DNA of 64,000 bases from Streptomyces sp. NBC_00239. Lineage in GTDB: Bacteria; Actinomycetota; Actinomycetes; Streptomycetales; Streptomycetaceae. Position numbers and translations under genes: made by a program. The notes beneath the pieces are model-generated. The model had not been told where the DNA came from, made no database searches, and was given only the letters and a program-made list of their open reading frames with translations. This document shows positions 5,685-19,093 of the stretch, piece by piece (position 1 is the first letter of the stretch; each line of letters opens with the position of its first letter). The stretch lies in NCBI RefSeq assembly GCF_036194065.1, contig NZ_CP108095.1, positions 5,952,001 to 6,016,000 on the forward strand. Reading direction: 5' to 3'.

Positions 5685-6671
5685 TTACTGCGGGCGTGCG
5701 GGGGGCAGGGTGGTGGCTCGGCATTGGGACGGGGTGCCCCAGGCGTCGCGCAGGGGGCGGGACTTGCGGAGCCACAGGGAGAGGTCGAGTTCTTCCGTGT
5801 AGCCGACCGCGCCGTGCAGCTGCAGGGCCGTACCCGCCGCCCTATAGGCCGCCTCGCCCGCCGCGAGCTTGGCCGCGGCGACCTCCCGCGGGCCGGGATC
5901 CAGCGCCGCCGCCCACACCAGCGGCCGGGCGAACTCCAGCGCCAGCAGTGTGTCCGCGAGCCGGTGCTTGACCGCCTGGAACGAGCCGATCGCCGCCCCG
6001 AACTGGGTGCGCCCGCGCACGTACGCCACCGTCTGCGCGAGCAGCGCCTCGCCGAGCCCCAGGCACTGCGCCGCCGTCAGCAGCCGCGCCCAGCAGCCCG
6101 CCGTCGCGGCCGCCGCCAGCACGTGCGGCCCCGCGGCGAGCAGCTCGCCGCCCGGCTCCGGCCGGAACAGCCGCCGGGCCGGGTCGGACGAGGCCAGCGC
6201 CGCGCCGGGGCCGGGCGACAGGTACAGCTCGCCCGCCGCGGTCACCGCGAACCGCCACCGCGCCGCGTCCGCGTCGAGCGCGTACGGGCTCCCGCCCGGC
6301 AGGGTCAGCGTGGCCTGCGCCGACCCGTCGGCCAGCTCCGGCAGGAACCGGCCGGCCGTCCCGTCCTGCCCGAGCCGGTCCAGTAGCACGGCCGCCGCCG
6401 CGCTCTCCACCAGCGGGCCCGGTACGGCGTACCGCCCCAGCTCGGTGAAGGCGACCGCCGCCACGTCGGGGAGCGGGCCCAGGCCCTCGTACCGTTCCGG
6501 CACGGCGAGCGCGAACACCCCGGTGCCGGCCAGCTTCTCGAACAGCGCCCGCCCCGGCCCGTGGTCACCCGCCGACCAGGCGCGTACGACCGAGGGCACG
6601 GCGGCCGCGGACAGCAGGGAGCCGACCGAACGCGCGAAGTCCGCCTGCTCGGCGGTGGGCTGGAAACGCAT
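5685..6671 (-). CDS. Acyl-CoA dehydrogenase, short subunit
   Basis: A 328-residue protein from ATG 6671, whose start overlaps the stop of the upstream dehydrogenase (TGATG). It has the ACAD helical N-terminus ('EQADFARSVGSLLSAAAVPSVV'), a middle beta domain, and the C-terminal flavin region 'ARLLTAAQCLGLGEALLAQTVAYVRGRTQFGAAIGSFQAVKHRLAD'. It ends with 'QLHGAVGYTEELDLSLWLRKSRPL'. It is shorter than classical ACADs (about 380), like the small subunits of the alpha2-beta2 steroid ACADs of Mycobacterium and Rhodococcus. I infer that it pairs with the preceding protein to dehydrogenate a steroid-derived acyl-CoA. The KstR2-type box at 7850 should control the pair. Confidence 0.85.
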   Translation of the reverse strand: MRFQPTAEQADFARSVGSLLSAAAVPSVVRAWSAGDHGPGRALFEKLAGTGVFALAVPERYEGLGPLPDVAAVAFTELGRYAVPGPLVESAAAAVLLDRLGQDGTAGRFLPELADGSAQATLTLPGGSPYALDADAARWRFAVTAAGELYLSPGPGAALASSDPARRLFRPEPGGELLAAGPHVLAAAATAGCWARLLTAAQCLGLGEALLAQTVAYVRGRTQFGAAIGSFQAVKHRLADTLLALEFARPLVWAAALDPGPREVAAAKLAAGEAAYRAAGTALQLHGAVGYTEELDLSLWLRKSRPLRDAWGTPSQCRATTLPPARPQ

Positions 6672-7816
6672 CAGCGGCGGCCCTTCGGGAGGCCGAGCAG
6701 CCGCTCGGCGATGATGTCGCGCTGGATCTCGTTGGTGCCCGCGTAGATCGGCCCGGCCAGGGCGAAGAGCCAGGGCTCCGACCAGGGTCCGGCCGCCAGC
6801 TCCGCGTCCGGTCCCAACAGGTCCAGGGCCGTCTCGTGGAGGGCGATGTCGAGCTCCGACCAGAACACCTTGTTCAGACTGGACTCCGCGCCGATCACCT
6901 CCCCCGCCGCGAACCGCGTCGCGTTCGCCCAGGTGAACAGCTGGTACGCACGCGCGCCGACGACCGCGTCGGCCACCCGGTCGCGCAGCGCCGTGTCCGC
7001 GGGGTCGGCGCGCTCGCGCCACAGCGCCGTCAGCCGGTCCGCGGCCGCCAGGAACCGGCCCGGCGAGCGCAGCGTCAACCCCCGCTCGTTGCCGGTCGTC
7101 GACATCGCGATCCGCCAGCCCTGCCCCGGCTCGCCGATCACGTCCTCGTCGGGGACGAACACCCCGTCCAGGAAGAGCTCCGCGAACGCCGGCTTGCCGT
7201 CGAGCCGTCCGATCGGCCGCACGGTGACCCCCGGCGCCCGCAGGTCGAACATCAGGTACGTGAGCCCCTGGTGCGGCCTGGGCGCCTGCGGGTCGCTGCG
7301 GAAGATGCCGAACGCCCGGTCCGCGAACGCGGCCCGCGAGGACCACGTCTTCTGCCCGGACAGCAGCCAGCCGCCGTCCGTGCGCACCGCCGTCGACCGC
7401 AGCGAGGCCAGGTCCGAGCCCGCCTCCGGCTCCGACCAGGCCTGCGCCCAGATCACCTCGCCGCGCGCCATCGGCGGCAGCACCCGGTCCCGCTGCTCGG
7501 GCGTGCCGTGGTCGAAGAGGGTGGGGGCGAGCAGGCTGATGCCGTTCTGCGAGACCCGGCCGGGCGCCCCGGCCGCGTGGTACTCCTCCTCGAACACCAG
7601 CCAGTGGAAGATGTCCGCGTCCCGTCCGCCGTACCGCGCGGGCCACGACACCGCGGACCAGCGGTCCGCGGCGAGCCGCCCCTCCCACTCCCGGTGGGCC
7701 GCGAATCCCTCGGCCGTCTCCAGGGAGGGCAGCGGGCCGGGCGGCACGTTCTCCCGGAGCCAGGCCCGGGCCTCGACCCGGAAGGCCGCCTGCTCCGGCG
7801 TCTGCGTGAGGTCCAC
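6671..7816 (-). CDS. Acyl-CoA dehydrogenase, long subunit
   Basis: A 381-residue FAD-dependent acyl-CoA dehydrogenase. I chose GTG 7816 because GGAGGAGG lies 10 bases before it and the family begins there ('DLTQTPEQAAFRVEARAWLREN'). The FAD/substrate signature 'WAQAWSEPEAGSDLASLRSTA' and 'WLLSGQKTWSSRAAFADR' are clear, as is the C-terminal 'IYAGTNEIQRDIIAERLLGLP'. Homologues in the HIP gene cluster (the FadE30-33 group) act on ring-derived CoA esters; which FadE this matches cannot be settled by eye. It is translationally coupled to the short subunit and divergent from the IpdF-like SDR across an operator. Confidence 0.88.
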   Translation of the reverse strand: MDLTQTPEQAAFRVEARAWLRENVPPGPLPSLETAEGFAAHREWEGRLAADRWSAVSWPARYGGRDADIFHWLVFEEEYHAAGAPGRVSQNGISLLAPTLFDHGTPEQRDRVLPPMARGEVIWAQAWSEPEAGSDLASLRSTAVRTDGGWLLSGQKTWSSRAAFADRAFGIFRSDPQAPRPHQGLTYLMFDLRAPGVTVRPIGRLDGKPAFAELFLDGVFVPDEDVIGEPGQGWRIAMSTTGNERGLTLRSPGRFLAAADRLTALWRERADPADTALRDRVADAVVGARAYQLFTWANATRFAAGEVIGAESSLNKVFWSELDIALHETALDLLGPDAELAAGPWSEPWLFALAGPIYAGTNEIQRDIIAERLLGLPKGRR

Positions 7817-7849
7817 CAGCCGTTCGCCTCCTCCGTACGATCCTTCCCT

Positions 7850-7863
7850 AACAAGTGTTTGGT
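7850..7863. promoter_or_regulatory. KstR2-like operator, divergent promoter
   Basis: AACAAGTGTTTGGT fits the published KstR2 consensus AnCAAGnnCTTGnT at every fixed position but one (C to T). It lies between the acyl-CoA dehydrogenase pair (start 7816, minus) and the IpdF-like SDR (start 7921, plus), whose downstream neighbour encodes a KstR2-like repressor. A near-identical site is at 17378-17391. Operator function is inferred. Confidence 0.75.
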
Positions 7864-7920
7864 AGATTAACGTACGGCCATGAGCAGCGTCGAGGAGCGG
7901 CTTCCCACGGAGGTACGGGC

Positions 7921-8748
7921 ATGACAGCGGCACCCGCCCACACACCCGCCCACACACCCGCCTACACGCACGGCCACCACCTGCTCGACGGCCGCACCGC
8001 CGTCATCACCGCCGCCGCCGGAGCCGGCATCGGCGGGGCCACTGCCCGCAGGTTCCTGGAGGAGGGCGCCCGGATCGTCATCGGCGACGCCCACGCCCGG
8101 CGCCTGAAGGAGACCGCCGAACGCCTGACCGCCGAATTCGGCGCCGGCCGCGTCGCCGCCCTGCCCTGCGACGTCACCGAAGAGGACCAGGTACAGGCCC
8201 TCTTCGACCTCGCCGAACACACCCACGGCCGCCTCGACATCGTCGTCAACAACGCCGGACTCGGCGGCACCGCGCACCTCGTCGACATGACCGACGACCA
8301 GTGGTCGAACGTCCTCGACGTCACCTTGAACGGCACCTTCCGCTGCACCCGCGCCGCCCTGCGCCGACTCCGCGACAGCCACGGCCCCGGCGACGGCGGC
8401 GGCGGCGCGGTGATCGTCAACAACGCCTCCGTCGTCGGCTGGCGCGCACAGACCGGCCAGGCCCACTACGCCGCCGCCAAGGCCGGGGTGATGGCCCTGA
8501 CCCGCTGCGCGGCGCTGGAGGCCGCCGAGTTCGGCGTCCGCGTCAACGCGGTCGCCCCCAGCCTGGCCATGCACCCGCACCTGGTGAAGGTCACCAGCCA
8601 GGAGTTGCTGGAGGAACTCACCGCCCGCGAGGCCTTCGGCCGGTACGCCGAACCCTGGGAGATAGCCAACGTCATCGTCTTCCTCGCCAGCAGCTACTCC
8701 TCCTACATGACGGGCGAGACCGTCTCCGTCAGCAGCCAGCGCGCCTAG
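7921..8748 (+). CDS. ipdF: IpdF-like short-chain dehydrogenase (steroid C/D-ring pathway)
   Basis: A 275-residue SDR; ATG 7921 follows GGAGGT at a normal distance. The N-terminus has a short His-Thr-Pro repeat ('HTPAHTPAYTHGHH') from a 12-bp duplication. The cofactor motif is the variant 'TAAAGAGIGGATA', then 'NNAGLGG', 'NNASVVGW' (Ser) and 'YAAAKAG' (Tyr, Lys). The ending 'YMTGETVSVSSQRA' is what I recall for Rv3559c/IpdF. IpdF oxidises or reduces the C5 hydroxyl/keto group of the HIP-derived bicyclic intermediate. It is the first gene of a probable ipdF-kstR2-fadA6 operon under the 7850 operator. The assignment rests on family resemblance plus gene order. Confidence 0.8.
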   Translation: MTAAPAHTPAHTPAYTHGHHLLDGRTAVITAAAGAGIGGATARRFLEEGARIVIGDAHARRLKETAERLTAEFGAGRVAALPCDVTEEDQVQALFDLAEHTHGRLDIVVNNAGLGGTAHLVDMTDDQWSNVLDVTLNGTFRCTRAALRRLRDSHGPGDGGGGAVIVNNASVVGWRAQTGQAHYAAAKAGVMALTRCAALEAAEFGVRVNAVAPSLAMHPHLVKVTSQELLEELTAREAFGRYAEPWEIANVIVFLASSYSSYMTGETVSVSSQRA

Positions 8749-8781
8749 GGCGCGTCCGGCCCCTGGCTACAGAATGGTCGC

Positions 8782-9426
8782 GTGCCCACGAAGAACAGCG
8801 ACAGCAAGCAGCCCGCCACCGCCAGGAAGAAGCCCCCGGTGACCGCCTCGCCCGAGCGCCGGCGCGAGCTCCTCGACACCGCCGCCGAGGTGTTCGCGGC
8901 ACAGGGTTACAACGCCACCACCGTCCGCAAGATCGCCGACGCCGCCGGCATGCTCGCCGGCAGCCTCTACTACCACTTCGATTCCAAGGAATCGATGCTC
9001 GACGAGATCCTCTCCACCTTCCTGACCGAGCTGTGGGACGGGTACGACGCCGTGCTCGACGCCGGACTCGGCCCCAGGGAGACCATCGAGGCCCTCGTCA
9101 CCGAGTCCTTCCGCGAGATCGACCGGCACCGCGCCGCCGTCGCGATCTACCAGAAGGAATCCCGCACCCTGGCCGCGCAGCCCCGCTTCCACTACCTCTC
9201 CGATTCGCAGCAGAAGTTCGAGAAGGCCTGGCTGGGGACGCTGGAGCGCGGGGTCGAGGCCGAGGTCTTCCGGGCCGACCTGGACATCCGCCTCACCTAC
9301 CGGTTCGTCCGCGACACGGTCTGGGTGGCGGCCTCCTGGTACCGGCCCGGCGGCCAGCACAGCCCCGAGGAGATCGCCCGCCAGTACCTGTCGATGGTGC
9401 TGGACGGCATCGCCGTGCGGACGTAA
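8782..9426 (+). CDS. kstR2: KstR2-like TetR-family repressor
   Basis: A 214-residue TetR regulator with GTG start at 8782. The HTH region covers about residues 25-70: 'RRRELLDTAAEVFAAQGYNATTVRKIADAAGMLAGSLYYHFDSKESMLDEIL'-type sequence, with the typical 'GSLYYHFDSKE' recognition-helix end. The C-terminal domain keeps features I associate with KstR2, such as 'VAIYQKESRTL' and 'DTVWVAASWYRPGG'. In Mycobacterium and Rhodococcus KstR2 represses the HIP catabolic genes and is released by HIP-CoA. Here it sits between the IpdF-like SDR (33 bp upstream) and the FadA6-like thiolase (31 bp downstream), as in those clusters. Two sites fitting its consensus lie in the window. Confidence 0.85.
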   Translation: MPTKNSDSKQPATARKKPPVTASPERRRELLDTAAEVFAAQGYNATTVRKIADAAGMLAGSLYYHFDSKESMLDEILSTFLTELWDGYDAVLDAGLGPRETIEALVTESFREIDRHRAAVAIYQKESRTLAAQPRFHYLSDSQQKFEKAWLGTLERGVEAEVFRADLDIRLTYRFVRDTVWVAASWYRPGGQHSPEEIARQYLSMVLDGIAVRT

Positions 9427-9457
9427 CCCAAGGATCCGATCCGAAGGAGCAGCAGCC

Positions 9458-10615
9458 ATGCCCGAGGCCTACATCGTCGAAGCGGTCCGCACCCCCGTCG
9501 GCAGGCGGGGCGGGGGACTGGCCGGGGTACACCCCGCCGACCTCGGCGCACACGTGCTGAAGGCCCTGGTCGAACGCTCCGGAGTGGAACCCGGTGCCGT
9601 CGAGGACGTCGTCTTCGGCTGCCTCGACACGGTCGGCCCGCAGGCCGGCGACATCGCCCGCACCGCATGGCTGGCCGCCGGGCTGCCCGAAGAGGTCCCC
9701 GGCGTCACCGTCGACCGCCAGTGCGGCTCCTCCCAGCAGGCCGTGCACTTCGCCGCACAGGGCGTCCTCTCCGGCACCCAGGACCTGGTGGTCGCCGGCG
9801 GCACCCAGAACATGTCGATGATCCCGATCGCCTTCGCCTCCCGGCAGGCCGCCGAGCCCCTCGGCCTGACCGAAGGCCCCTACGCCGGCTCGGCGGGCTG
9901 GCGGGCCCGCTACGGCGACGCGCCCGTCAACCAGTTCCACGGCGCCCAGCTCATCGCCGAGAAATGGGGCATCTCCCGCCGCGACATGGAGGAGTTCGCG
10001 CTGCGCTCCCACCGGCGGGCCGCCCGCGCCATCGACGAGGGCCGCTTCACCCGCGAGACCGTCCCCTACGGGAACGTGACCACCGACGAGGGCCCGCGCC
10101 GCGACACCACCCTGGAGAAGATGGCGGGCCTGAAACCGGTCGTCGCGGGCGGCACCATCACCGCCGCCGTCTCCTCCCAGGTCTCCGACGGCGCGGCCGC
10201 CATGCTGCTCGCCTCGGAACGCGCCGTACGCGAGCACGGACTGACCCCTCGGGCCCGCATCCACCACCTGTCGGTGCGCGGCGAGGACCCGATCCGGATG
10301 CTGTCGGCCCCCATCCCGGCGACCGCGTACGCACTGAAGAAGGCCGGCATGACCCTCGACGACATCGACCTGGTCGAGATCAACGAGGCCTTCGCCCCCG
10401 TCGTGCTCGCCTGGCTGAAGGAGACCGGCGCGGACCCGGCGAAGGTCAACCCCAACGGAGGAGCCATCGCCCTGGGCCACCCGCTGGGCGCCACCGGCGT
10501 CAAGCTGATGACGACACTGCTGCACGAACTGGAGCGGACCGGCGGCCGCTACGGCCTCCAGACCATGTGCGAGGGCGGCGGCCAGGCGAACGTCACGATC
10601 ATCGAACGCCTCTGA
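9458..10615 (+). CDS. fadA6: FadA6-like acetyl-CoA acyltransferase (thiolase)
   Basis: A 385-residue degradative thiolase with ATG 9458 preceded by AAGGAGCAGCAGCC. The acyl-accepting Cys is C89 in '[10 protein letters not shown]', the general-base His is H341 in '[14 protein letters not shown]', and the second Cys is C371 in 'MCEGGGQ'. The 'EINEAFAPV' loop is also present. In the HIP pathway FadA6 removes acetyl-CoA from a ring-opened C/D-ring product. Its place right after kstR2 supports the FadA6 assignment over generic AtoB. A GC-rich hairpin at 10638-10659 probably ends the operon. Confidence 0.87.
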
Positions 10616-10637
10616 CGGCCGGGCGGGCGGCCCGGAA

Positions 10638-10659
10638 CGGGGCCCGGGCACGGGCCCCG
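10638..10659 (+). terminator. GC-rich hairpin after the thiolase gene
   Basis: CGGGGCCCG (10638-10646) pairs with CGGGCCCCG (10651-10659) around a 4-base loop, 22 bp past the fadA6 stop. No T run follows. Confidence 0.5.
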
Positions 10660-10795
10660 GCGCGGGCGGCCCGGGCCCCCGTGCCGCCGCCCGGCCGGTG
10701 TGGGGAACAACGCACCGGGGGCGGGCGGCTCAGCTACCCCACCGTGATGTGTTAGCTTTGGAGAGTTGCAGTTGTGGTACCCATGAACTTTATGC

Positions 10796-10827
10796 GCGCC
10801 TGACGGGAATGTTCCTCAGGCGCTTTT
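10796..10827 (+). promoter_or_regulatory. Leader hairpin plus T tract before the cold-shock gene
   Basis: GCGCCTGA (10796-10803) pairs perfectly with TCAGGCGC (10816-10823) around a 12-base loop and is followed by TTTT. It lies 55 bp upstream of the cold-shock start, inside what is probably a long untranslated leader. A second small hairpin (CCGG-catct-CCGG) follows near 10837. It looks like an attenuator or a temperature-responsive leader; function is inferred. Confidence 0.55.
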
Positions 10828-10877
10828 ACTGTTTTCCGGCATCTCCGGATGGGTTCCCTCACATTCAGGAGATTGTT

Positions 10878-11081
10878 ATGGCCAACGGCACCGTGAAGTG
10901 GTTCAACTCGGAAAAGGGCTTCGGCTTCATCGAGCAGGAGGGTGGCGGCCCGGACGTGTTCGCCCACTACTCCAACATCGCCACCCAGGGCTTCCGTGAG
11001 CTCCAGGAAGGCCAGAAGGTGACCTTCGACGTCACGCAGGGCCAGAAGGGCCCCCAGGCGGAGAACATCCTCCCCGCCTGA
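10878..11081 (+). CDS. Cold-shock protein (CspA family)
   Basis: A 67-residue single CSD protein starting at ATG 10878. The RNP1 motif 'KGFGFIEQE' and RNP2-like 'DVFAHYSNI' are intact. The sequence '[18 protein letters not shown]' is typical of the acidic Streptomyces Csp proteins. Such proteins bind single-stranded RNA/DNA and melt structure at low temperature. A DEAD-box helicase gene follows 91 bp downstream, beyond a strong terminator; both products act on RNA structure. The start is unambiguous because longer frames upstream read through the leader. Confidence 0.97.
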
Positions 11082-11096
11082 TTGCTCACCGCACGG

Positions 11097-11131
11097 CCGG
11101 GGCCCGCACCGCTTGGTGCGGGCCCCGGTTT
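11097..11131 (+). terminator. Rho-independent terminator after the cold-shock gene
   Basis: Bases 11097-11110 pair perfectly with 11115-11128 (14 bp, CCGGGGCCCGCACC) around a GCTT loop, and TTT follows. It separates the csp transcript from the helicase gene. Confidence 0.85.
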
Positions 11132-11172
11132 GCGCTGTCCGCTCTGTCCGTCACTCAGGAGGGCGTCTCCGC

Positions 11173-12834
11173 ATGACCAGCTCCAGCTCCGCCCGTGCCC
11201 CCCGCCGCCCCAGCAGCAACCGGGGCGCCGCCCAGGGCCGCCCGAAGGCCGCCGCTGGCCGCCCGAAGGCCGTGGCGCGGCCCCAGGAATTCACCATGCC
11301 GGAGACCTTGACCCCCGCCCTGCCCCCGGTCGCCTCCTTCGAGGACCTGGACATGCCGGCCGCGCTGCTCAAGACCCTCACCGCCCAGGGTGTGACCGAG
11401 CCCTTCCCCATCCAGGGCGCCACCCTGCCGAACTCGCTCGCCGGCCGTGACCTCCTCGGCCGCGGCCGCACCGGCTCCGGCAAGACCCTCGCGTTCGGCC
11501 TGGCCCTGCTCGCCCGCACCGCCGGCCGCCGCGCCGAGCCCCGCGCGCCGCTGGCCCTGGTCCTCGTACCGACCCGCGAGCTCGCGCAGCAGGTCACCGA
11601 CGCGCTGACCCCGTACGCGACCTCCGTCAACCTGCGCATAGCCACGGTCGTCGGCGGCATGTCGATCAACCGGCAGGCCACCGCCCTCAAGCGCGGCGCC
11701 GAAGTGCTCGTCGCCACCCCGGGCCGCCTCAAGGACCTCATCGACCGCGGCGACGTCACCCTCGCCCAGGTCGCGATCACCGTCCTCGACGAAGCCGACC
11801 AGATGACCGACATGGGCTTCCTGCCCCAGGTCACCGCCCTGCTCAAGCAGGTCGAGGAGGGCGGCCAGCGGCTGCTCTTCTCCGCGACCCTCGACAAGAA
11901 CGTCGACCGGCTGGTCAAGCAGTTCCTCACCGACCCGGTGACGCACTCCGTGGACCCCTCGGCCGGCGCCGTCGTCACCATGGAGCACCACGTCCTGTAC
12001 GTCCTGGACGAGACCGACAAGAAGGCCGTCACCGCGCGCATCGCCGCCCGCGACGGCCGCGTCATCATGTTCCTGGACACCAAGCGCTCCGTGGACCGCC
12101 TCGTCAAGCGGCTCCTCGCCAGCGGCGTACGCGCCTCCGGCCTGCACGGCGGCCGCTCCCAGCCGCAGCGCAACCGCACCCTGGACCAGTTCAAGAACGG
12201 CCAGGTCACCGCGCTGATCGCGACCAACGTCGCGGCCCGCGGCATCCACATCGACGACCTCGACCTCGTCGTCAACGTGGACCCGCCCACCGACCACAAG
12301 GACTACCTGCACCGCGGCGGACGCACCGCCCGCGCCGGCGAGTCCGGCAGCGTGGTCACCCTGGTGCTGCCCGAGCAGAAGCGCGACATGAGCCGCCTGA
12401 TGTCGGACGCCGGGATCGCCCCGCGCGCCGCGCAGATCCGTTCCTCCGACGAGGAGCTGGCCCGCCTCACCGGCGCCCGCGAGCCCTCCGGCGTCCCGGT
12501 CGTCGTGGACGTGCCCCAGCCGGCGGCCCCCGCCCGGGCGAAGTCCCCGGCCAAGCCGCGGCGCTCCCGCCCGGCCGGCTCCGGCAGCGGCGCGCCCGCC
12601 GCCGGCGCCACCACCGCGGGTGCCCGCACCCGCCGGCCCCGCACCGGCGGCCAGCCCGCCGGCGGCGCCGCCGCCACGGGCACCGGCACGACCTCGCGCA
12701 CCCGCTCCGGCGGCGGCCAGGCCCGCACCGGCGGCGGCCAGCCGCGCACCGGCGGCGGCCAGGCCCGTACCGGTGGCGGCCAGGCCCGCCGCCAGGGCGG
12801 CGGCGGCCGTCCCGCGTCCGGCCGCACGGCCTGA
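11173..12834 (+). CDS. DEAD-box ATP-dependent RNA helicase
   Basis: A 553-residue helicase. ATG 11173 is chosen because AGGAGGG lies 10 bases upstream. It has the Q-motif region ('PFPIQGATLPNSL'), motif I 'GRGRTGSGKT', Ia 'PTREL', II 'LDEADQM' (DEAD), III 'SAT', and motif VI 'HRGGRTARAG'. After about residue 440 there is a low-complexity tail rich in Arg, Gly, Pro and Ala with repeats of 'ARTGGGQ' type. Such tails bind RNA non-specifically. It is related to RhlE/CsdA-like helicases used in ribosome assembly and cold adaptation, matching the adjacent cold-shock gene. Confidence 0.93.
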   Translation: MTSSSSARAPRRPSSNRGAAQGRPKAAAGRPKAVARPQEFTMPETLTPALPPVASFEDLDMPAALLKTLTAQGVTEPFPIQGATLPNSLAGRDLLGRGRTGSGKTLAFGLALLARTAGRRAEPRAPLALVLVPTRELAQQVTDALTPYATSVNLRIATVVGGMSINRQATALKRGAEVLVATPGRLKDLIDRGDVTLAQVAITVLDEADQMTDMGFLPQVTALLKQVEEGGQRLLFSATLDKNVDRLVKQFLTDPVTHSVDPSAGAVVTMEHHVLYVLDETDKKAVTARIAARDGRVIMFLDTKRSVDRLVKRLLASGVRASGLHGGRSQPQRNRTLDQFKNGQVTALIATNVAARGIHIDDLDLVVNVDPPTDHKDYLHRGGRTARAGESGSVVTLVLPEQKRDMSRLMSDAGIAPRAAQIRSSDEELARLTGAREPSGVPVVVDVPQPAAPARAKSPAKPRRSRPAGSGSGAPAAGATTAGARTRRPRTGGQPAGGAAATGTGTTSRTRSGGGQARTGGGQPRTGGGQARTGGGQARRQGGGGRPASGRTA

Positions 12835-12852
12835 CCCGCACCGCGCAGCATG

Positions 12853-12894
12853 ACCGGGGCCGGTGCCGTGAGCGATCACGGCACCGGCCCCGGT
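12853..12894. terminator. 19-bp perfect hairpin terminator
   Basis: Bases 12853-12871 pair exactly with 12876-12894 around the loop GCGA, and GCGTTT follows. It lies between the convergent helicase and phosphatase genes and can serve both. Confidence 0.85.
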
Positions 12895-12944
12895 GCGTTT
12901 GCGGGCGCCGGCAGGCCCAGCGCACCCGGCGGACCGGCCGGGAC

Positions 12945-13943
12945 TCAGCGGACCAGCCGGGAATGGAGCTTCGCCAGCGTGGACAGGTCGAGGCCCAGCC
13001 CGCGCGTCAGGTACCCGTAGAAGTCGCCGTAGTCGGCGGCCAGCTGCGCGGTCGCCGCGTCCAGGTAGTCCTGACGGACCTCCTGGAGCGGGATCAGCAG
13101 ATCCGGATTCTGCATCCGGCCGGACTGCCGCAGCCCCTCGCGGACCCGGGCGTCGTACGCGCCGCGGAACGCGTTCGACGCCAGGTAGTCCTGCGCGGCC
13201 GTCCCCTCGGGCACGGCCAGCGCGCGCAGCAGCACGTAGCCCAGCCAGCCCGTACGGTCCTTGCCCGACGTGCAGTGGAACAGCAGCGGGCCCTGCCCGC
13301 CGGCCGCCAGGTCCCGCAGCGTCGCCGCGAACTGCGCCCGGTTCTCGGCGCTCGTGACGAACGTGCGGTAGATGTCCCGCATGTACGCCTCCGCCCGTCC
13401 GCCGCCCAGCATCGCCTCCTGCCGGACCGGGTCGCCGCTCCCGATCGCCGTCAGCAGCGTCCCGAACAGCCCGAGGTCGCTCACCGGCCGCGAGGTCACC
13501 GCGAGCCCCGCCGGCAGCCGGTCGCCGCCGTCGTACTGGACCTCCAGCGGGATCCGGAAGTCCACGACCTTCGCCAGCCCCAGCCCCGCCAGGGTGGCGA
13601 CGTCGGCGTCCGTCACCTTGCCGAGCGCGTCCGAGCGGTACACCAGGCCCTGGCGCACCTGACCGCCCGTGTACGTGCGGTATCCGCCCAGGTCACGGAC
13701 GTTGACCGCGCCCTGCAGGGGTATCTGCCGGATCGCCGTCGTCCCGTACGGCGCCCGCGGATGCTGGCGCAGCAGCGCGGCCGCGGCGCTCCCCGCACTT
13801 CCGGCGCTCCCCGGAGTCCCGGCGCTCCCCGGGCTCCCGGCGGTCGCGTGCGCGGTCGCCGGGAGCGTCCCCACGGCGAGTGCGCACAGCAGCGCCCCCG
13901 CCGAAGCCAGCCGGATCCGTCGCGTTCTTCGAGCACGGCTCAT
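12945..13943 (-). CDS. Secreted tyrosine-protein phosphatase-like protein
   Basis: A 332-residue protein from ATG 13943. A Sec signal peptide is visible: 'RRTRRIRLASAGALLCALAVG' then 'LPATAHATA'. A Gly-Ser-Ala spacer with repeats (about residues 37-55) follows. The catalytic P-loop is 'HCTSGKDRTG' with C224 and R230 (CX5R), as in the bacterial Tyr_phosphatase_3 (PtpB/LipA-like) family. Upstream lie 'NVRDLGGYRTYTGGQVRQGLVYRSD' and 'VVDFR', typical of it. These hydrolyse phosphotyrosine, phosphoserine or phosphoinositides. Its ATG overlaps the ipdC stop by 4 bp, so it is probably translated from the steroid-catabolic transcript. That is unexpected, and no obvious functional link is known to me. 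Confidence 0.88.
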   Translation of the reverse strand: MSRARRTRRIRLASAGALLCALAVGTLPATAHATAGSPGSAGTPGSAGSAGSAAAALLRQHPRAPYGTTAIRQIPLQGAVNVRDLGGYRTYTGGQVRQGLVYRSDALGKVTDADVATLAGLGLAKVVDFRIPLEVQYDGGDRLPAGLAVTSRPVSDLGLFGTLLTAIGSGDPVRQEAMLGGGRAEAYMRDIYRTFVTSAENRAQFAATLRDLAAGGQGPLLFHCTSGKDRTGWLGYVLLRALAVPEGTAAQDYLASNAFRGAYDARVREGLRQSGRMQNPDLLIPLQEVRQDYLDAATAQLAADYGDFYGYLTRGLGLDLSTLAKLHSRLVR

Positions 13944-14995
13944 GTGTCGTATCTCCTTGGCAGCTCGTCCAGTACCTGCTGTGCCTCGGCCATCACCCGG
14001 GCGACGAGCTCCGCACACGACGGAAGGTCCTCGATCACGCCCGCGACCTGGCCCGATGCCATGATTCCGAGGTCCGTACGGCCCTCGACCATGGACGCCT
14101 TCAGGAGCATCGGGGTGTTCGCGGCGAGCAGGACCTGGCTCCAGGACAGGTCCTTGCCGTGTTTCATCGCCAGCCCGTCCCGCACCATCTGCGGCCAGCC
14201 CATCCCCGAGATCCGGCGGAACCCCGCCGCGTGCCGCACCGCCCGCAGCAGCGCCCCGGCCCGCCCCGACCGCTCCAGCGACGCCACCAGCGGGGTGCGC
14301 AGCATCCGGTGCGGCAGCCCGTCCACGGCCGTGGTCACCGTGACGTCCTTCACCGCCGCCGCCAGATAGCGCGCCTTCACGGCGTCCGGAACGGTCGAAT
14401 CCGAGGTGAGCAGGAAACGGGTGCCCATCGCGACGCCCGCCGCCCCGAACGCGAGCGCCGCCACCAGCCCCCGCCCGTCGTGGAAACCGCCCGCCGCGAC
14501 CACCGGGATGTCCACCGCGTCCACCACCTGCGGCAACAACACCGTCGTGGCCACCTCCCCGGTGTGCCCGCCACCCTCGCCGCCCTGCACGATCACCGCG
14601 TCCGCACCCCACCCGGCGACCTTCTCCGCGTGCCGCCGCGCCCCCACCGACGGGATCACCACCACGCCCGCGTCCTTCAGCCGCGCGATCAGCTCCCGCG
14701 ACGGCGCCAGCGCGAACGAGGCGACCCGCACCCCTTCGTCGACGATCAGCTGCGCCCGCTCGGCCGCGTCCCCGGCGTCCGCCCGCAGGTTCACCCCGAA
14801 CGGGGCGCCGGTACGGGACTTCACCTCGCGGACCGCCGACCGCAGCTGCTCCAGCGTCATGGTCGCGGACGCGAGGATGCCCAGCGCCCCCGCGTTCGCG
14901 GTCGCCGACACCAGCCGCGGACCCGCCACCCAGCCCATCCCCGTCTGCACCACCGGATGCTCGATGCCGACGAGCTTCGTGAGCGCCGTCTCCAT
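13940..14995 (-). CDS. ipdC: IpdC-like flavin-dependent reductase (nitronate monooxygenase family)
   Basis: A 351-residue TIM-barrel flavoprotein, annotated in many genomes as 2-nitropropane dioxygenase. Features are 'HPVVQTGMGWVAGPRLVSATANAG' at the N-terminus, the phosphate-binding 'VIVQGGEGGGHTG', 'VVAAGGFHDGRGLVAALAFGAAGVAMGTRFLL', and a long C-terminal extension. In the HIP pathway IpdC (Rv3553) is an NADH-dependent reductase acting on a hydroxylated bicyclic CoA ester rather than a nitronate oxidase. It fits here because ipdB, ipdA and echA20 lie immediately upstream. Its start overlaps the ipdB stop (TGATG), and its stop overlaps the phosphatase start (ATGA). Confidence 0.85.
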   Translation of the reverse strand: METALTKLVGIEHPVVQTGMGWVAGPRLVSATANAGALGILASATMTLEQLRSAVREVKSRTGAPFGVNLRADAGDAAERAQLIVDEGVRVASFALAPSRELIARLKDAGVVVIPSVGARRHAEKVAGWGADAVIVQGGEGGGHTGEVATTVLLPQVVDAVDIPVVAAGGFHDGRGLVAALAFGAAGVAMGTRFLLTSDSTVPDAVKARYLAAAVKDVTVTTAVDGLPHRMLRTPLVASLERSGRAGALLRAVRHAAGFRRISGMGWPQMVRDGLAMKHGKDLSWSQVLLAANTPMLLKASMVEGRTDLGIMASGQVAGVIEDLPSCAELVARVMAEAQQVLDELPRRYDT

Positions 14996-15717
14996 CAGGC
15001 GGCCCGCACTTCCCGGTCCCGCAGGCCCTGCGGGTCGACGACCTCGCGGATCAGCCGCAGCTCGGCCGCGGTCGGCTCCCGCGTGAACGGCACCCGCTCC
15101 CCGATCGCCAGCTCGAAGCCGGTGGCCGCCACGACCTCCTCGACGCTCACCCCCGGATGCACCGACGCCAGCCGCATGCGGTGGTCCGGGGTCTCGAAGT
15201 CGAACACGCCGAGGTCGCTGACGACCCGCGGCAGCCGGTGGTGGCGGGCGCCGACGGCCGCGGCCCGGTCGTACCCGACCCCGCTGACCATGTCGACGCG
15301 CTCCACGAACACCCGCGGCGAATGCCGGGGCACCCAGTAACTGACCGGGTTGTTCAGGGTGTTGGCGGGCGCGCCGCGCACCCCGAGGAGCTGGCGGGCG
15401 GGGCGCTCCCAGGCACCGATGCACGAGATGTTCTGGTTGCCGTACCGGTCGATCTGGCTGGCGCCCATCATCACGTGCCGACGGCCGCCGGTGACCATCG
15501 CCAGGTGGCGGCGGTACGGCAGCCAGCCCTCGACGGTGCCGTCCAGCCCGACGAGCACGGCCTCGCCGTCGGTCAGCAGCAGGTCGGGGGAGAACGTCCG
15601 CTTGGCGAGCCGGGCACCGAAGGACGGGACGAGCCCCATGGGGCTGGCGAGCACCTCGCCGTTGTCCCGCCAGGCCTCGGCGCACGCCACCACGCAGTAT
15701 TCGGAACGGCTGATCAC
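14995..15717 (-). CDS. ipdB: IpdB-like COCHEA-CoA hydrolase subunit beta
   Basis: A 240-residue protein of the CoA-transferase family I beta fold. GTG 15717 is chosen: GAGGAG lies seven bases upstream and the family begins 'SRSEYCVVACAEAWRDNGEVLASPMG'. The usual catalytic SENG motif of class I CoA-transferases is not visible; 'RDNGEVLASPMGLVPSFGARLAK' is in its place. That agrees with the known use of IpdAB as a ring-opening hydrolase of steroid D-ring intermediates rather than a transferase. 'MMGASQIDRYGNQNIS' and 'HPGVSVEEVVAATGFEL' are conserved CoA-transferase segments. The upstream junction with ipdA contains duplicated short sequence. Confidence 0.85.
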   Translation of the reverse strand: MISRSEYCVVACAEAWRDNGEVLASPMGLVPSFGARLAKRTFSPDLLLTDGEAVLVGLDGTVEGWLPYRRHLAMVTGGRRHVMMGASQIDRYGNQNISCIGAWERPARQLLGVRGAPANTLNNPVSYWVPRHSPRVFVERVDMVSGVGYDRAAAVGARHHRLPRVVSDLGVFDFETPDHRMRLASVHPGVSVEEVVAATGFELAIGERVPFTREPTAAELRLIREVVDPQGLRDREVRAA

Positions 15718-15758
15718 TTCTGCTCCTCGCGCCTCTGCGCTGCTCACTTCTGCGCCGC

Positions 15759-16610
15759 TCACTTCTGCTCCTCGTGCCAGGTGCGGACGGCGGACTGGTA
15801 GGCGTGCTCGTCCGGCCCGGACAGGAAGCGCTCGGCGAACTCGCCCCAGGGAGTGGTCGCGTACAGCTTCTGGAAGGCCTCGTCGCGGCCGTAGTCGGGG
15901 ACGCAGGAGGTGAAGTGCGCGCCGTGCGGGGCCTCGACGACGCCGGTGACGGAGTGCCGGGAGACCAGCAGGGTCTGCGGGGCGGCGTCCTTCGTCAGCT
16001 CGGCGCTCTCCACGATCTGCTCGCAGGACACGTACGCGGTGTCGGCGGCCTCGCAGAACAGGTCGTCGAAGTACGGGTCGGGGCCCAGGTACTGGCCGTT
16101 GCCGAGCCGGTCGGCCCGGTTGAGGTGGACCAGGGCGGCGTCCAGGCGCAGGGCGGGCGCGGCGACGAACTCCTCGCCGTCCTCGTAGGGCGACCGTACG
16201 GTCTTCAGCCAGGGGTTGACCCGCATCACGTCGGAGCCGATGCCGGCGCGTACGGGCAGGAACGGCAGCCGGTTCGCGGCGGCGTGCAGCCCCCACATGA
16301 ACATCGCCTCGTCGAGCTCGGTCATCTCGAAGGCGGCGCGCTCGCGGGCGGCCCGGAAGTGCGGTTCCAGCGGGATCGAGTCGAGGGTCGCGAAGGGGGC
16401 GATCAGGCGCCGGATCCGGCCGGCCGCCGCGAGCAGGCCCACGTCCGGACCGCCGTACGAGACGACGGTGAGATCGGTGATCCCGGTCCGGAGCAGTGCT
16501 CGCACCAGGGCCATCGGCTTGCGCCGCGAGCCCCAGCCGCCGATGCCGACGGTCATCCCGTCGGCCAGCCGGCCCACGGCGTCGTCGGCGCTCATGGTCT
16601 TGTCGGTCAC
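15759..16610 (-). CDS. ipdA: IpdA-like COCHEA-CoA hydrolase subunit alpha
   Basis: A 283-residue CoA-transferase alpha-fold protein starting at GTG 16610, which overlaps the echA20 stop by 4 bp (GTGA). The N-terminus 'DGMTVGIGGWGSRRKPMALVRALLRTGITDLTVVSYGGPDVGLL' is the CoA-binding glycine loop; 'YLGPDPYFDDLFCEAAD' and 'CVPDYGRDEAFQKLYA' follow. Length and order match Rv3551/IpdA. With IpdB it hydrolyses the last carbon ring of steroid catabolism. Its final bases (gaggagcagaagtga) are repeated at the ipdB start. Confidence 0.86.
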   Translation of the reverse strand: MTDKTMSADDAVGRLADGMTVGIGGWGSRRKPMALVRALLRTGITDLTVVSYGGPDVGLLAAAGRIRRLIAPFATLDSIPLEPHFRAARERAAFEMTELDEAMFMWGLHAAANRLPFLPVRAGIGSDVMRVNPWLKTVRSPYEDGEEFVAAPALRLDAALVHLNRADRLGNGQYLGPDPYFDDLFCEAADTAYVSCEQIVESAELTKDAAPQTLLVSRHSVTGVVEAPHGAHFTSCVPDYGRDEAFQKLYATTPWGEFAERFLSGPDEHAYQSAVRTWHEEQK

Positions 16611-17356
16611 GCGTCCTGCCCCTTCCCGAAGGAGTCGCGGACCCGGTCGGCGACCCCGCTGAGGTTGGCCTCGAAGGTGAATCCCTGCTCGAAGCGGTAG
16701 CTGCGGCGCACGTCCACCGGGTCGATGCCGTTGATGGCGGCCTTCGCCAGCCGGATCAGGTAGCCGTCCTTCCGGGCGATCTCCCCGGCCAGCGCGAGCG
16801 CGGCGGCCCGCAGCCGCTCCCGCGGCACCACCTCCCACACCGAGCCGTGCGCGTGCAGCTCGGCGGCGGTCGCGGTGCGCGAGGTGTAGTACAGGGCGCG
16901 CATCAGGTGCTGGGGGACCAGCCGGGACAGGTGCGTGGCCGCGCCGAGCGCCCCGCGGTCCAGCTCCGGCAGCCCGAAGACCGCGTCGTCGCTCGCCACG
17001 ATCGCGTCGGCGTTGCCGACCAGGCCGATGCCGCCGCCCAGGCAGAAGCCGTTGACCGCCGCCACCACCGGCACCTCGCACTCGTACACCGCCGCGAAGG
17101 CCTCGTAGCAGCCGCGGTTGGCGCCGATCAGCGCGCCGTGGCCGGGGTCGCGCTGCATCTCCTTGATGTCGACCCCGGCGTTGAAGCCGCGGCCCTCGGC
17201 GGCCAGCACCACGCACCGGACCTCCGGGTCGCGGCCGGCCGCGCGCAGTGCGTCGGCGAGGTCGTACCAGCCCTGCACGGGCAGCGCGTTGACGGGAGGG
17301 AAGTCGGTGGTGACGAGTGCGACGCCCTTGTCCGGGCGGGAGGTGGAGACACCCAT
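16607..17356 (-). CDS. echA20: EchA20-like enoyl-CoA hydratase-family ring hydrolase
   Basis: A 249-residue crotonase-fold protein. I prefer ATG 17356 to the upstream ATG 17386, which lies inside the operator. Oxyanion-hole segments are 'GRGFNAGVDIKEMQRD' and 'NGFCLGGGIGLVGNADAIVASDDAVFGLPELDRGALGAATHLSRLVP'. EchA20 (Rv3550) opens the D ring of the HIEC-CoA intermediate. It is the first gene of the minus-strand operon echA20-ipdA-ipdB-ipdC-phosphatase, controlled from the KstR2-like box at 17378. The ribosome site is weak (GGAAAGG, 14 bases upstream). Confidence 0.86.
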   Translation of the reverse strand: MGVSTSRPDKGVALVTTDFPPVNALPVQGWYDLADALRAAGRDPEVRCVVLAAEGRGFNAGVDIKEMQRDPGHGALIGANRGCYEAFAAVYECEVPVVAAVNGFCLGGGIGLVGNADAIVASDDAVFGLPELDRGALGAATHLSRLVPQHLMRALYYTSRTATAAELHAHGSVWEVVPRERLRAAALALAGEIARKDGYLIRLAKAAINGIDPVDVRRSYRFEQGFTFEANLSGVADRVRDSFGKGQDA

Positions 17357-17377
17357 GGGAGGATCAGCTACCTTTCC

Positions 17378-17391
17378 ACCAAACATTTGTT
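17378..17391. promoter_or_regulatory. Second KstR2-like operator, divergent promoter
   Basis: ACCAAACATTTGTT is a symmetric variant of AnCAAGnnCTTGnT (both G/C steps become A/T). Its reverse complement differs from the 7850 site by one base in 14. It lies 22 bp upstream of echA20 and 21 bp upstream of the SDR at 17413, so it can control both directions. Confidence 0.72.
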
Positions 17392-17412
17392 AGGTGAGGA
17401 AGGTAGCAGCCC

Positions 17413-18183
17413 ATGGAGCTGGACGGGAGGGTCGCCGTCGTCACCGGCGGCACCCGCGGCGTCGGAGCCGGCATCGCCCGGTCGTTCCTCGCCGCGGGCG
17501 CCGAGGTCGTCCTCTGCGCCCGCAGACCACCCGACGCACCGGTCGCCGCCGGCGGCCGCACCGCCACCCACATCCCCGCCGACCTGCGCGACCCGGCGGC
17601 CGTCGACGCCCTCTTCGCGCAGGTCGCGGCCCGCCACGGGCGCCTCGACTGCCTGGTCAACAACGCCGGCGGCACCCCGTACCGGCCGCTCGCCGAAGGC
17701 GGCGCACAGCGCCACGCCCGCGTCCTCGACCTCAACCTCACCGCCCCGCTCACCGCCTCCCTCGCCGCGTACGAGCAGCTGCGCACGGCCCGCGGCTCGA
17801 TCGTGATGATCACCAGCGTGAGCGGCACCCGACCGTCACCGGGCACGGCGGCCTACGGTGCGGCGAAGGCCGGACTGGAGAGCCTGGCCCGCTCGATGGC
17901 CGTGGAATGGGCCCCCGAGGTGCGGGTGAACAGTCTCGTCCTGGGCATGGTGCGGACCGAACTGGCGCACCTGCACTACGGCGACGAGCGCGGCGTCGCG
18001 GCGGTCGCGGCGACCGTGCCCCTGGGCCGGCTCGCCGAGCCCTCGGACGTGGGCGCGGCGGCGGTGTTCCTCGCCTCGGACCGGGCGGCCTACGTGAGCG
18101 GCGCGAGCCTGCTCGTGCACGGCGGCGGCGAACGCCCGGCCTTCCTCGACGCGGCAAACGCCAACAAGACAGAGGAGAGCTGA
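17413..18183 (+). CDS. Short-chain dehydrogenase of the HIP cluster (Rv3549c-like)
   Basis: A 256-residue SDR from ATG 17413 ('MELDGRVAVVTGGTRGVGAGIA'). It has the TGxxxGxG cofactor site, 'NNAGG', Ser in 'IVMITSVSGTRPS' and 'YGAAKAG' for Tyr and Lys. The position divergent from echA20 matches Rv3549c next to echA20 in M. tuberculosis, although the orientation there may differ in detail. The reaction is probably oxidation or reduction of a ring-derived hydroxyacyl intermediate and is not known for certain. The gene ends two bases before the next SDR start. Confidence 0.8.
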   Translation: MELDGRVAVVTGGTRGVGAGIARSFLAAGAEVVLCARRPPDAPVAAGGRTATHIPADLRDPAAVDALFAQVAARHGRLDCLVNNAGGTPYRPLAEGGAQRHARVLDLNLTAPLTASLAAYEQLRTARGSIVMITSVSGTRPSPGTAAYGAAKAGLESLARSMAVEWAPEVRVNSLVLGMVRTELAHLHYGDERGVAAVAATVPLGRLAEPSDVGAAAVFLASDRAAYVSGASLLVHGGGERPAFLDAANANKTEES

Positions 18184-18184
18184 T

Positions 18185-19093
18185 ATGGGTATCGCCGAAG
18201 GTCGGGTCGTGATCGTGACGGGCGCGGGCCGGGGACTGGGCCGGGCGCACGCGCTCGCGTTCGCCGCGGAAGGCGCCCGGGTCGTGGTGAACGACCTCGG
18301 GGTGGGCCTGGACGGCGTCCCCGCCCCCGGCAGCCCCGCCGCGCAGGTCGCCGACGAGATCCGGGCGCGGGGCGGATCGGCCGTCGCGCACGGCGGGGAC
18401 ATCGCCACCACCGAGGGAGCCGCCTCGCTGATCGCCTGCGCGGTCGACACCTACGGCCGCCTCGACACCCTCGTCAACAACGCGGGCTTCCTGCGCGACC
18501 GGATGCTGGTCAACCTCGACGAGGACGACTGGGACGCGGTCATGCGGGTCCACCTCAAGGGCCACTTCCTGCCGCTGCGGCACGCGGCCGCGCACTGGCG
18601 GGCCGAGGCCAAGGCGGGCCGCGCGCCCGCCGCCCGGGTGGTCAACACCTCCTCCGGGGCCGGCCTGCTGGGGTCGGTGGGCCAGGGCAACTACAGCGCG
18701 GCCAAGGCCGGCATCCTCGGCCTCACCCTCGTCGCCGCCGCCGAGATGGGCCGCTACGGAGTCCAGGTCAACGCGATCGCCCCGGCCGCCCGCACCCGCA
18801 TGACGGAACAGGCCTTCGCCGAGACGATGGCCGCGCCGGGGGAGGGTGAGTTCGACGCCATGGCGCCCGCGAACGTGTCCCCGCTGGTGGTCTGGCTGGG
18901 CTCGGACGCCTCGGCGGGCGTCACCGGTCGGGTCTTCGAGACGGAGGGAGGCCGGATCACGGTGATGGACGGCTGGCGCCCGGGCGCCACCACCGACAAG
19001 GGCGCCCGCTGGACCCCGGCGGAAGCCGGCCGCGCGGCCACCGCCCTCCTCGCCGAGTCACAGCCCGCCCGCCCGGTGTACGGCGCCAACTGA
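18185..19093 (+). CDS. Short-chain dehydrogenase, MFE-2-like (Rv3548c-like)
   Basis: A 302-residue SDR resembling the 3-hydroxyacyl-CoA dehydrogenase domain of peroxisomal multifunctional enzyme 2. Features are 'VIVTGAGRGLGRAHALAFAAEGARVVVNDLG', 'TLVNNAGFLRDRML', 'VVNTSSGAGLLGSVGQGNYSAAKAGI' (Ser, Tyr, Lys). The C-terminal region after 'VNAIAPAARTRMT' is longer than in ordinary SDRs. It follows the previous SDR almost without a gap and the pair resembles Rv3549c-Rv3548c of the steroid cluster. It probably completes beta-oxidation of ring fragments; the exact substrate is unknown. Confidence 0.82.
   Translation: MGIAEGRVVIVTGAGRGLGRAHALAFAAEGARVVVNDLGVGLDGVPAPGSPAAQVADEIRARGGSAVAHGGDIATTEGAASLIACAVDTYGRLDTLVNNAGFLRDRMLVNLDEDDWDAVMRVHLKGHFLPLRHAAAHWRAEAKAGRAPAARVVNTSSGAGLLGSVGQGNYSAAKAGILGLTLVAAAEMGRYGVQVNAIAPAARTRMTEQAFAETMAAPGEGEFDAMAPANVSPLVVWLGSDASAGVTGRVFETEGGRITVMDGWRPGATTDKGARWTPAEAGRAATALLAESQPARPVYGAN

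Follow-up and report, generated by a model that had tools for sequence, protein, structure and literature searches.

A predicted KstR2-controlled HIP catabolic core in Streptomyces and its co-occurrence with an unlinked acyl-CoA degradation locus

We analysed a 64-kb stretch of the 9.3-Mb genome of Streptomyces sp. NBC_00239 (G000:C1:5952001-6016000, here called the window; genome rated 100% complete) and found in it a gene set resembling the core of HIP (methyl-hexahydroindanedione-propionate) catabolism. Between positions 5685 and 19093 the cluster consists of ipdE2 and ipdE1 on the minus strand, ipdF, kstR2 and fadA6 on the plus strand, ipdC, ipdB, ipdA and echA20 on the minus strand, and two genes for short-chain dehydrogenases/reductases (SDRs) on the plus strand. 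An earlier reading made from the letters alone (the sequence-only reading) had named these genes in these neighbourhoods, and all of them were found with open frames. Its acyl-CoA dehydrogenase pair is present as well and can be specified as IpdE1 and IpdE2, in the places of FadE31 and FadE32, not as FadE30.

Among solved proteins, IpdA is closest to chain A of IpdAB (6co6/6con, E 1.5e-93) and IpdB to chain B (E 3.5e-84), while glutaconate CoA-transferase follows at 3e-25 and 3e-18, respectively. The Glu that is replaced by Ala in the 6coj variant is retained in IpdA, and IpdB has the Gly of TDGEA at the place of the catalytic Glu of the CoA-transferases. The argument that Gly57 replaces this Glu in IpdAB is made in PMC5380842. 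On residues and scores we rejected a CoA-transferase identity of the pair. We also rejected a loss of the functional Glu of IpdA (E-to-H, 'GLEAAA'/'GLHAAA'), since the Glu concerned sits in 'MDEGM'/'LDEAM' and is kept. The best solved match of KstR2 is an unnamed regulator (2ibd, 5e-65), followed by the named KstR2 structures 4w97/4w1u (1e-57); the next TetR protein follows at 1e-19. IpdE1, whose GTG start at 7816 is preceded by GGAGGAGG, has 4x28 and 6wy9/6wy8 as its best solved relatives, and its assignment as FadE30 was rejected because it is FadE31-like (68% versus 39% to FadE30). IpdE2 has orthologues at 56-71% in nine same-genus clusters and scores 129.6 bits with the NCBIfam IpdE2 model, below the cut-off of 450.

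The models PRK07831, PRK07801, PRK07938, PRK07856 and PRK07791 presumably correspond to the Mycobacterium tuberculosis genes whose names we use. These labels are supported by the same gene order in Nocardia and by the gene table of PMC5380842. The Nocardia stretches themselves are unannotated and were labelled from the known order of the genes and from PMC5380842; KshA, HsaC, HsaA, KstD and FadD3 pass their models there, and the labels FadE31-33, EchA13, FadD19, EchA19, Ltp, Chs and CYP125 are provisional. The clades proposed by the sequence-only reading were thus borne out, with IpdAB and KstR2 structures as best hits and the models for FadA6, EchA20, IpdF and the SDRs above cut-off. Moreover, ipdC, echA20, ipdF, fadA6 and the two SDR genes are clustered in conserved order. 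The eleven cluster genes are under purifying selection, with omega values of 0.06-0.51 against five relatives, which argues against a dead remnant.

The KstR2 orthologue and operators of the AnCAAGnnCTTGnT type indicate that the cluster is apparently repressor-controlled. The motif AnCAAGnnCTTGnT is the mycobacterial KstR2 consensus according to PMC3068626. With operators in both divergent promoters, the four predicted transcripts of the cluster would begin at KstR2-type sites. The one at 17378-17391 is 21 bases from both predicted start codons and occupies the same intergenic place as the mycobacterial site Rv3549c-Rv3550, which, in PMC3068626, is one of three intergenic regions bound by KstR2, together with, among others, Rv3560c-Rv3561. 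At up to two mismatches, AnCAAGnnCTTGnT has 21 matches in the window, compared with 6.1 expected by shuffling, and just two of these lie in divergent promoters. The 14-mer AACAARTGTTTGGT, derived from the two window sites themselves, occurs at up to one mismatch exactly twice in the 9.3-Mb genome, both times at the cluster operators, and its reversed control pattern has 0 genome matches. Because of this derivation, the independent check is conservation across 80 named Streptomyces ipd loci. All 80 contain the motif at up to two mismatches (147 sites; two in 63 loci, one in 15, three in 2), compared with 1 site in one mononucleotide shuffle.

Predicted features of the window and of the unlinked locus B (window positions unless a contig is given; percentages are identities)
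Feature	Position	Strand	Description
IpdE2	5685..6671	-	FadE32-like acyl-CoA dehydrogenase, short subunit; 51% to Nocardia gene in FadE32 place
IpdE1	6671..7816	-	FadE31-like acyl-CoA dehydrogenase; 68% to Nocardia gene in FadE31 place
KstR2-type operator AACAAGTGTTTGGT	7850..7863	+	divergent promoter ipdE1/ipdF; 1 mismatch to AnCAAGnnCTTGnT
IpdF (SDR)	7921..8748	+	PRK07831 442 bits, cut-off 336; 65% to Nocardia IpdF
KstR2 (TetR repressor)	8782..9426	+	4w97/4w1u match; 53% to Nocardia KstR2; omega 0.13-0.24
FadA6 (beta-ketoacyl-CoA thiolase)	9458..10615	+	PRK07801 709 bits, cut-off 591; 68% to Nocardia FadA6
DEAD-box helicase	11113-12834		inside the interval, not a cluster member
Tyrosine-phosphatase-like gene	12945-13943		inside the interval, not a cluster member
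IpdC (FabK/NMO-type flavoprotein)	13940..14995	-	PF03060 E 7e-85; 68% to Nocardia IpdC
IpdB (hydrolase beta subunit)	14995..15762	-	start uncertain, 15762 or 15717; best solved relative IpdAB chain B
IpdA (hydrolase alpha subunit)	15759..16610	-	best solved relative IpdAB chain A; functional Glu kept
EchA20 (crotonase-family ring-D hydrolase)	16607..17356	-	PRK07938 418 bits, cut-off 260; 68% to Nocardia EchA20
KstR2-type operator AACAAATGTTTGGT (as read on -)	17378..17391	-	divergent promoter echA20/SDR; 2 mismatches to AnCAAGnnCTTGnT
SDR, Rv3549c type	17413..18183	+	PRK07856 374 bits, cut-off 255; 59% to Nocardia gene, same place
SDR, Rv3548c type	18185..19093	+	PRK07791 491 bits, cut-off 373; 69% to Nocardia gene, same place
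Locus B	G000:C1:4649467-4702139 (L055, L029, L030)		conserved Streptomyces catabolic cluster, unlinked to ipd

In the window, queries for fadE30, fadE33, fadD3, kshA, hsaC, hsaA and kstD gave paralogue-level hits at most, in agreement with the earlier statement that FadD3, kstD and hsaC are not there; an EchA13-like query had EchA20 as its sole match and FadE30 queries matched IpdE1 alone (39-42%). The sequence-only reading had tied its case to a HIP-CoA ligase somewhere in the genome, and an unlinked FadD3-family candidate was found at about G000:C1:4687603-4689255 (797.5 bits for 4687711-4689243, cut-off 657; 51% to Nocardia FadD3), so that its refuting condition of an absent ligase does not hold. 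A KstD was likewise found outside the window, at G000:C1:7387024-7388844 (NF005882, 3-oxosteroid 1-dehydrogenase, 909.6 bits, cut-off 788; 54% to Nocardia KstD). It belongs to a region that we call locus C (G000:C1:7365178-7388844), where it lies near FadD19-, EchA19-, Ltp3- and Ltp4-like genes (7376388-7388844). For genes outside the window, the starts are approximate, having been predicted with a simple GC-frame script, and the labels follow the best BLAST match among the window or Nocardia genes.

A hand count gave a strong IpdA (best E < 1e-70) in 209 of 295 same-genus genomes; 59 of the remaining genomes have matches of 1.1e-27 or weaker only, and 27 have none at 1e-3. From the 295 we chose, by IpdA strength and at 1-10 contigs, a non-random panel of 66 genomes, comprising G000, 40 further IpdA-strong genomes and 25 in which IpdA is weak or absent. 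KshA (60-64%) and HsaC (48-51%) occur in the same six of the 66 (G012, G023, G074, G083, G098 and G103), all IpdA-strong. In the other 35 of the 41 IpdA-strong genomes no KshA match exceeds 37% identity; 29 of these are without any HsaC match and six have weaker ones, at 43-45% in G009, G013, G068, G108 and G124 and at 31% in G137. KstD at 48-55% was found in 23 of the 41 and in 0 of the 25 others, with hits of 34-40% (G053, G055, G092 and G170) left uncounted.

G000 itself has no match at E <= 1e-15 either for KshA (query PF19298, KshA_C) or for HsaC (query passing NF045631 at 577 bits, cut-off 450), and the same queries find both in the six panel genomes. The classical 9,10-seco route to HIP was thus not detected by these two enzymes, HsaA, HsaB, HsaD and KshB not having been searched genome-wide. 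That the strain is nevertheless a complete classical 9,10-seco steroid degrader with its upper genes elsewhere would be in line with the KstD above its curated cut-off, the FadD19-, EchA19-, Ltp3- and Ltp4-like genes beside it and the FadD3 at another place. Given two key enzymes undetected at E <= 1e-15 in a genome rated complete, this explanation is largely refuted and we give it hardly any credence. Catabolism of the steroid C/D rings or a related hydrindane, which the sequence-only reading had proposed, stands as the natural reading of the core; steroid use by the known complete pathway is not supported.

The acyl-CoA dehydrogenase FadE30 occurs in two forms in the panel. Among the matches listed, the cluster-type FadE30a (77-84%) is found in 10 of the 41 IpdA-strong genomes and FadE30b (60-65%, a part-length match in some genomes) in 37; each of the 41 has one or the other, and the six with both are the six with KshA and HsaC. 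FadE30b of G000 is an open 449-residue frame with insertions relative to FadE30a and lies 1.3 Mb from the cluster. In G038 (L247, C1:5690001-5710000), which belongs to the rpoB clade of G000, a FadE30 remnant lies between ipdE1 and ipdF, with about residues 35-179 gone and one in-frame stop, and the same spot holds a 121-residue EchA13-like remnant. Together with the complete version in G074 at the same chromosomal place, these remnants suggest that the arrangement in the window arose by loss. One might go further and regard the whole cluster as a functionless, decaying relic of a lost steroid pathway, as FadE30 and the EchA13-like gene are missing where G074 has them and G038 retains remnants of both there. 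However, the eleven genes are open and constrained, the operators are conserved and a second FadE30 is present where the first is gone, so that a relic appears very unlikely to us.

The FadD3 candidate and FadE30b of G000 lie in locus B, whose gene order is largely conserved in G054, G230, G109, G124, G005 and G174. The locus comprises genes for an acyl-CoA ligase, a PF04909 protein (ARO1), two acyl-CoA dehydrogenases, a cyclase-family protein, an SDR, FadE30b, an alcohol dehydrogenase, an HsaB-like flavin reductase (NF045630, 176 bits, below the cut-off of 230), enoyl-CoA hydratase-like proteins, an ADP-forming CoA ligase, ChsH2-type OB-fold proteins, lipid-transfer-type thiolases, a TetR regulator (PF19352), FadD3 and a second PF04909 protein, ARO2. 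G174, whose locus B is without the SDR and FadE30b, has the cluster FadE30. Several family scans of locus-B proteins returned no names or generic names alone. The best solved relatives of ARO1 and ARO2 are DitZ (8uyr, about 1e-56) and then PtmU3 (6omp, 9e-34 and 1e-39), and the D-x-H-x-x-E, H-I-G and D-Y-P-H motifs of ARO1 align with both. PtmU3 is grouped with amidohydrolase-related dinuclear oxygenases in PMC10811679; a literature search on DitZ found nothing relevant.

We found that in Streptomyces the ipd cluster co-occurs with the locus-B markers FadD3 and the DitZ/PtmU3-like oxygenase. Locus-B FadD3 (75-86%) is present in all 41 IpdA-strong genomes of the panel; at E <= 1e-120 the 25 IpdA-weak or -absent ones have none, bar a 55% relative in G105. 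ARO2 at 87% identity or more shows the same split, 41 of 41 against 0 of 25, and G105 again has a more distant relative (57%). Mapped on an rpoB tree, the distribution of IpdA requires 9 changes, 7 of them on well-supported branches, and contrasts of IpdA with FadD3/ARO2 agree in 7 of 7 (p 0.016). This test compares a label with itself, since, with the G105 relatives counted as absent, FadD3 and ARO2 were called in exactly those of the 66 genomes in which IpdA is strong. A separately drawn class-wide set of 217 genomes included 22 of the same genus, 16 of them outside the panel. Among the matches listed, IpdA and the oxygenase are concordant in every one of these 22 (14 with both, 8 with neither).

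Two observations on single genomes may be added here. Locus-B FadD3 of G012 lies in two distant pieces (C1:6158173-6159201 and 8966139-8966900), at a rearrangement breakpoint or through an assembly fault. The IpdA-weak G105 carries a different acyl-CoA cluster (C1:319159-383914, L280-L283) with a 54% FadD3, a 60% ARO1, a P450, and FadE- and Ltp-like genes.

Locus B appears to have a regulation of its own. A 17-bp palindrome, TCTGACGnnnCGTCAGA, is found at many of its promoters; in G000 the sites precede ARO1, the SDR-FadE30b genes, the flavin reductase, FadD3/Ltp2, ARO2 and LLM genes. It was recognised by eye in a palindrome listing of locus-B promoters and then counted on the same loci plus others. 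Hence the counts in the seven Streptomyces loci where it was discovered (9-13 sites per locus at up to two mismatches; dinucleotide shuffles 0-1) are not independent, and those in G322, G364, Nocardia and control stretches are. At the same threshold we counted 10 sites in 100 kb of G322 (shuffles 0-3), 3 in 100 kb of G364 (0-1), 0 in 149 kb of Nocardia, and 1, 0, 1 and 0 in four control stretches of 15-20 kb. The G322 sites include those ahead of echA20-ipdABC (107562, 1 mismatch), the TetR gene itself (106721, 2), CYP125/FadA5 (71249, 2) and ARO2 (48469, 1). Locus C of G000 has two sites at two mismatches, one of them between the FadD19-like and EchA19-like genes. The PF19352 TetR would be the protein reading this operator. 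A literature search on the motif found nothing relevant.

Among the matches listed, IpdA at E <= 1e-60 occurs in 60 of the 217 genomes, 46 of them among the 195 that belong to other genera. Of these 195, 26 have the oxygenase at E <= 1e-100, 15 of them IpdA-positive and 11 IpdA-negative; all 11 non-genus genomes with an oxygenase identity of at least 61% are IpdA-positive, again among the matches listed. Oxygenase and IpdA are about 34-47 kb apart in G364, G494, G372, G421 and G469 and about 59 kb apart in G322. A single stretch of G364 holds ARO1 (74%), relatives of the locus-B ligase, cyclase and alcohol dehydrogenase, Ltp3/4-like genes, KstR2, FadE30, IpdF and IpdABC. Similarly, a single stretch of G322 holds ARO2, CYP125-, FadA5-, Ltp3/4- and FadE34-like genes, a relative of the locus-B TetR (48%) and EchA20-IpdABC. 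Neither the 194-kb contig of G322 nor 100 kb of G364 yielded KshA or HsaC relatives (1e-20), the rest of both genomes being unsearched. Nonomuraea gerenzanensis (NZ_LT559118, L033) has IpdABC, EchA20, IpdF, a FadE, FadA6 and a KstR2 relative (42%), gave no KshA match at E <= 1e-60 across its 11.85-Mb record, and is possibly another orphan case. The 87-kb record of a Tsukamurella tyrosinosolvens plasmid (NZ_LR134446, L034) carries the SDR-SDR/echA20-ipdABC half of the HIP cluster.

Overall, the window probably holds a working HIP-CoA core module that is partnered with locus B and acts on some polycyclic substrate. A HIP core plus locus B is the most economical reading; from it we infer the enzyme activities, the effector and the flux between the two loci. 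KstR2 would repress the core at the two divergent promoters. The unlinked FadD3-family ligase would make a HIP-CoA-like thioester, which the unlinked second FadE30, FadE30b, would dehydrogenate. FadA6 would then shorten the product and IpdF and IpdC convert it, EchA20 would open the five-membered ring and IpdAB the six-membered ring, and FadA6 with IpdE1-IpdE2 would finish the chain, a step order taken by analogy with Crowe et al. 2017. HIP-CoA or an analogue would relieve KstR2. In Streptomyces the core would mostly be uncoupled from the KshA/HsaC ring-A/B route, and locus B, as a separately regulated acyl-CoA degradation system, would supply FadD3 and probably also the substrate, as well as FadE30b in the majority of genomes.

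Candidate substrates are HIP itself, a sterol opened otherwise or another terpenoid. The two key feeder enzymes were not found, and the cluster is accompanied by the distant locus B. Adjoining the cluster are genes for an isoafricanol-synthase-like terpene synthase (3156-4160; 175.6 bits, cut-off 500) and an S-adenosylmethionine methyltransferase (3156-4924 for both). In five relatives, the matching stretches contain no predicted gene equivalent to the synthase, which is therefore no evidence for a terpene substrate; we rejected a link of the cluster to the synthase.

Several points weigh against a partnership of core and locus B. The G000 ligase is a FadD3 candidate by its model score and its 51% identity to Nocardia FadD3. 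No KstR2-type site at up to two mismatches lies in locus B of G000, and KstR2 control of FadD3 was rejected for lack of such a site there; at three mismatches the scanned 100 kb of G000 gave two sites, neither of them within the conserved part, and locus B of G124 has one site at two mismatches. Conversely, TCTGACGnnnCGTCAGA has 0 sites at up to two mismatches in the 64-kb window, and control of the cluster by the locus-B operator was rejected. The two loci of G000 are thus not co-regulated as judged from their motifs. Few independent events underlie the FadE30a/FadE30b pattern, since on the rpoB tree three of the four genomes with FadE30a alone are a single clade and the fourth (G174) is nearby. 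Outside the genus the link of ipd to locus B is looser: among the matches listed, 31 IpdA-positive genomes are without the oxygenase at E <= 1e-100, and the 11 IpdA-negative genomes have oxygenase relatives of 45-58%.

Alternatively, the strain may be a scavenger that takes up HIP or other C/D-ring leftovers of soil steroid degraders, with locus B as a loosely related second use of the ligase. We regard this as possible but rather unlikely. An ipd core with ligase and FadE30 in the 35 panel genomes lacking a closer KshA would suit a scavenger, as would the IpdA of Nonomuraea gerenzanensis without a KshA match. Scavenging leaves unexplained, however, why the locus-B oxygenase and FadD3 are gained and lost jointly with ipd and why G000 retains KstD and Ltp3/Ltp4- and FadD19-like genes. 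A partnership with locus B can also be extended, tentatively and with rather low probability, to a Rieske-independent route for steroids or steroid-like polycyclic terpenoids in most Streptomyces: the two DitZ/PtmU3-type oxygenases of locus B might hydroxylate CoA-bound intermediates, the TetR might read TCTGACGnnnCGTCAGA, and the remaining hydrindane might be passed as HIP-CoA or an analogue to the ipd core.

To our knowledge, IpdAB, EchA20 and KstR2 have been described from steroid work only, and our finding calls their steroid specificity into question. In the genomes examined closely the cluster is whole and accompanied by the same unlinked partner locus. Either a common soil genus finishes the steroid waste of other bacteria, or it opens polycyclic rings by undescribed means. 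If the Rieske-independent route were true, steroid catabolism would be a majority trait of a genus that a survey of the known pathway scored almost wholly negative. According to PMC4810484, the pathway is absent from 55 of 57 Streptomyces genomes surveyed; the ring-C/D half alone was apparently not counted there. Presence in 2 of 57 contrasts with a strong IpdA in 209 of 295. In the open-licence PMC literature we found no publication on an orphan HIP cluster in Streptomyces.

Compared with known systems, the window has core genes in common with the KstR2 regulon of Mycobacterium and Rhodococcus (Rv3548c-Rv3565), as described in PMC5380842 and PMC3068626. The divergent arrangement at the SDR/echA20 promoter, operators at equivalent places, the Glu of IpdA and the Gly of IpdB are common to both. 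In contrast to that regulon, the cluster has no FadD3, FadE30 or FadE33 and the window no ring-A/B genes, the operator reads ACCAAACAYTTGTT, and the ligase and FadE30b are encoded at an unlinked locus under different regulation. In Nocardia farcinica, fadE30 adjoins ipdF, and the cluster also has fadD3, an echA13-like gene and fadE33, followed by kshA, hsaADCB and kstD. Among the six same-genus genomes with KshA and HsaC, G074 is the one compared in full. Its cluster lies at the same chromosomal place, flanked by PPOX, PadR, SDR, helicase, phosphatase and trypsin genes, with core genes 70-92% identical, and additionally holds FadE30, the EchA13-like gene, a cluster FadD3 (52%), HsaEFG, KshA, HsaADCB and KstD. 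As to the oxygenases DitZ (8uyr) and PtmU3 (6omp), their relatives ARO1 and ARO2 of locus B are uncharacterised proteins that co-occur with the ipd core.

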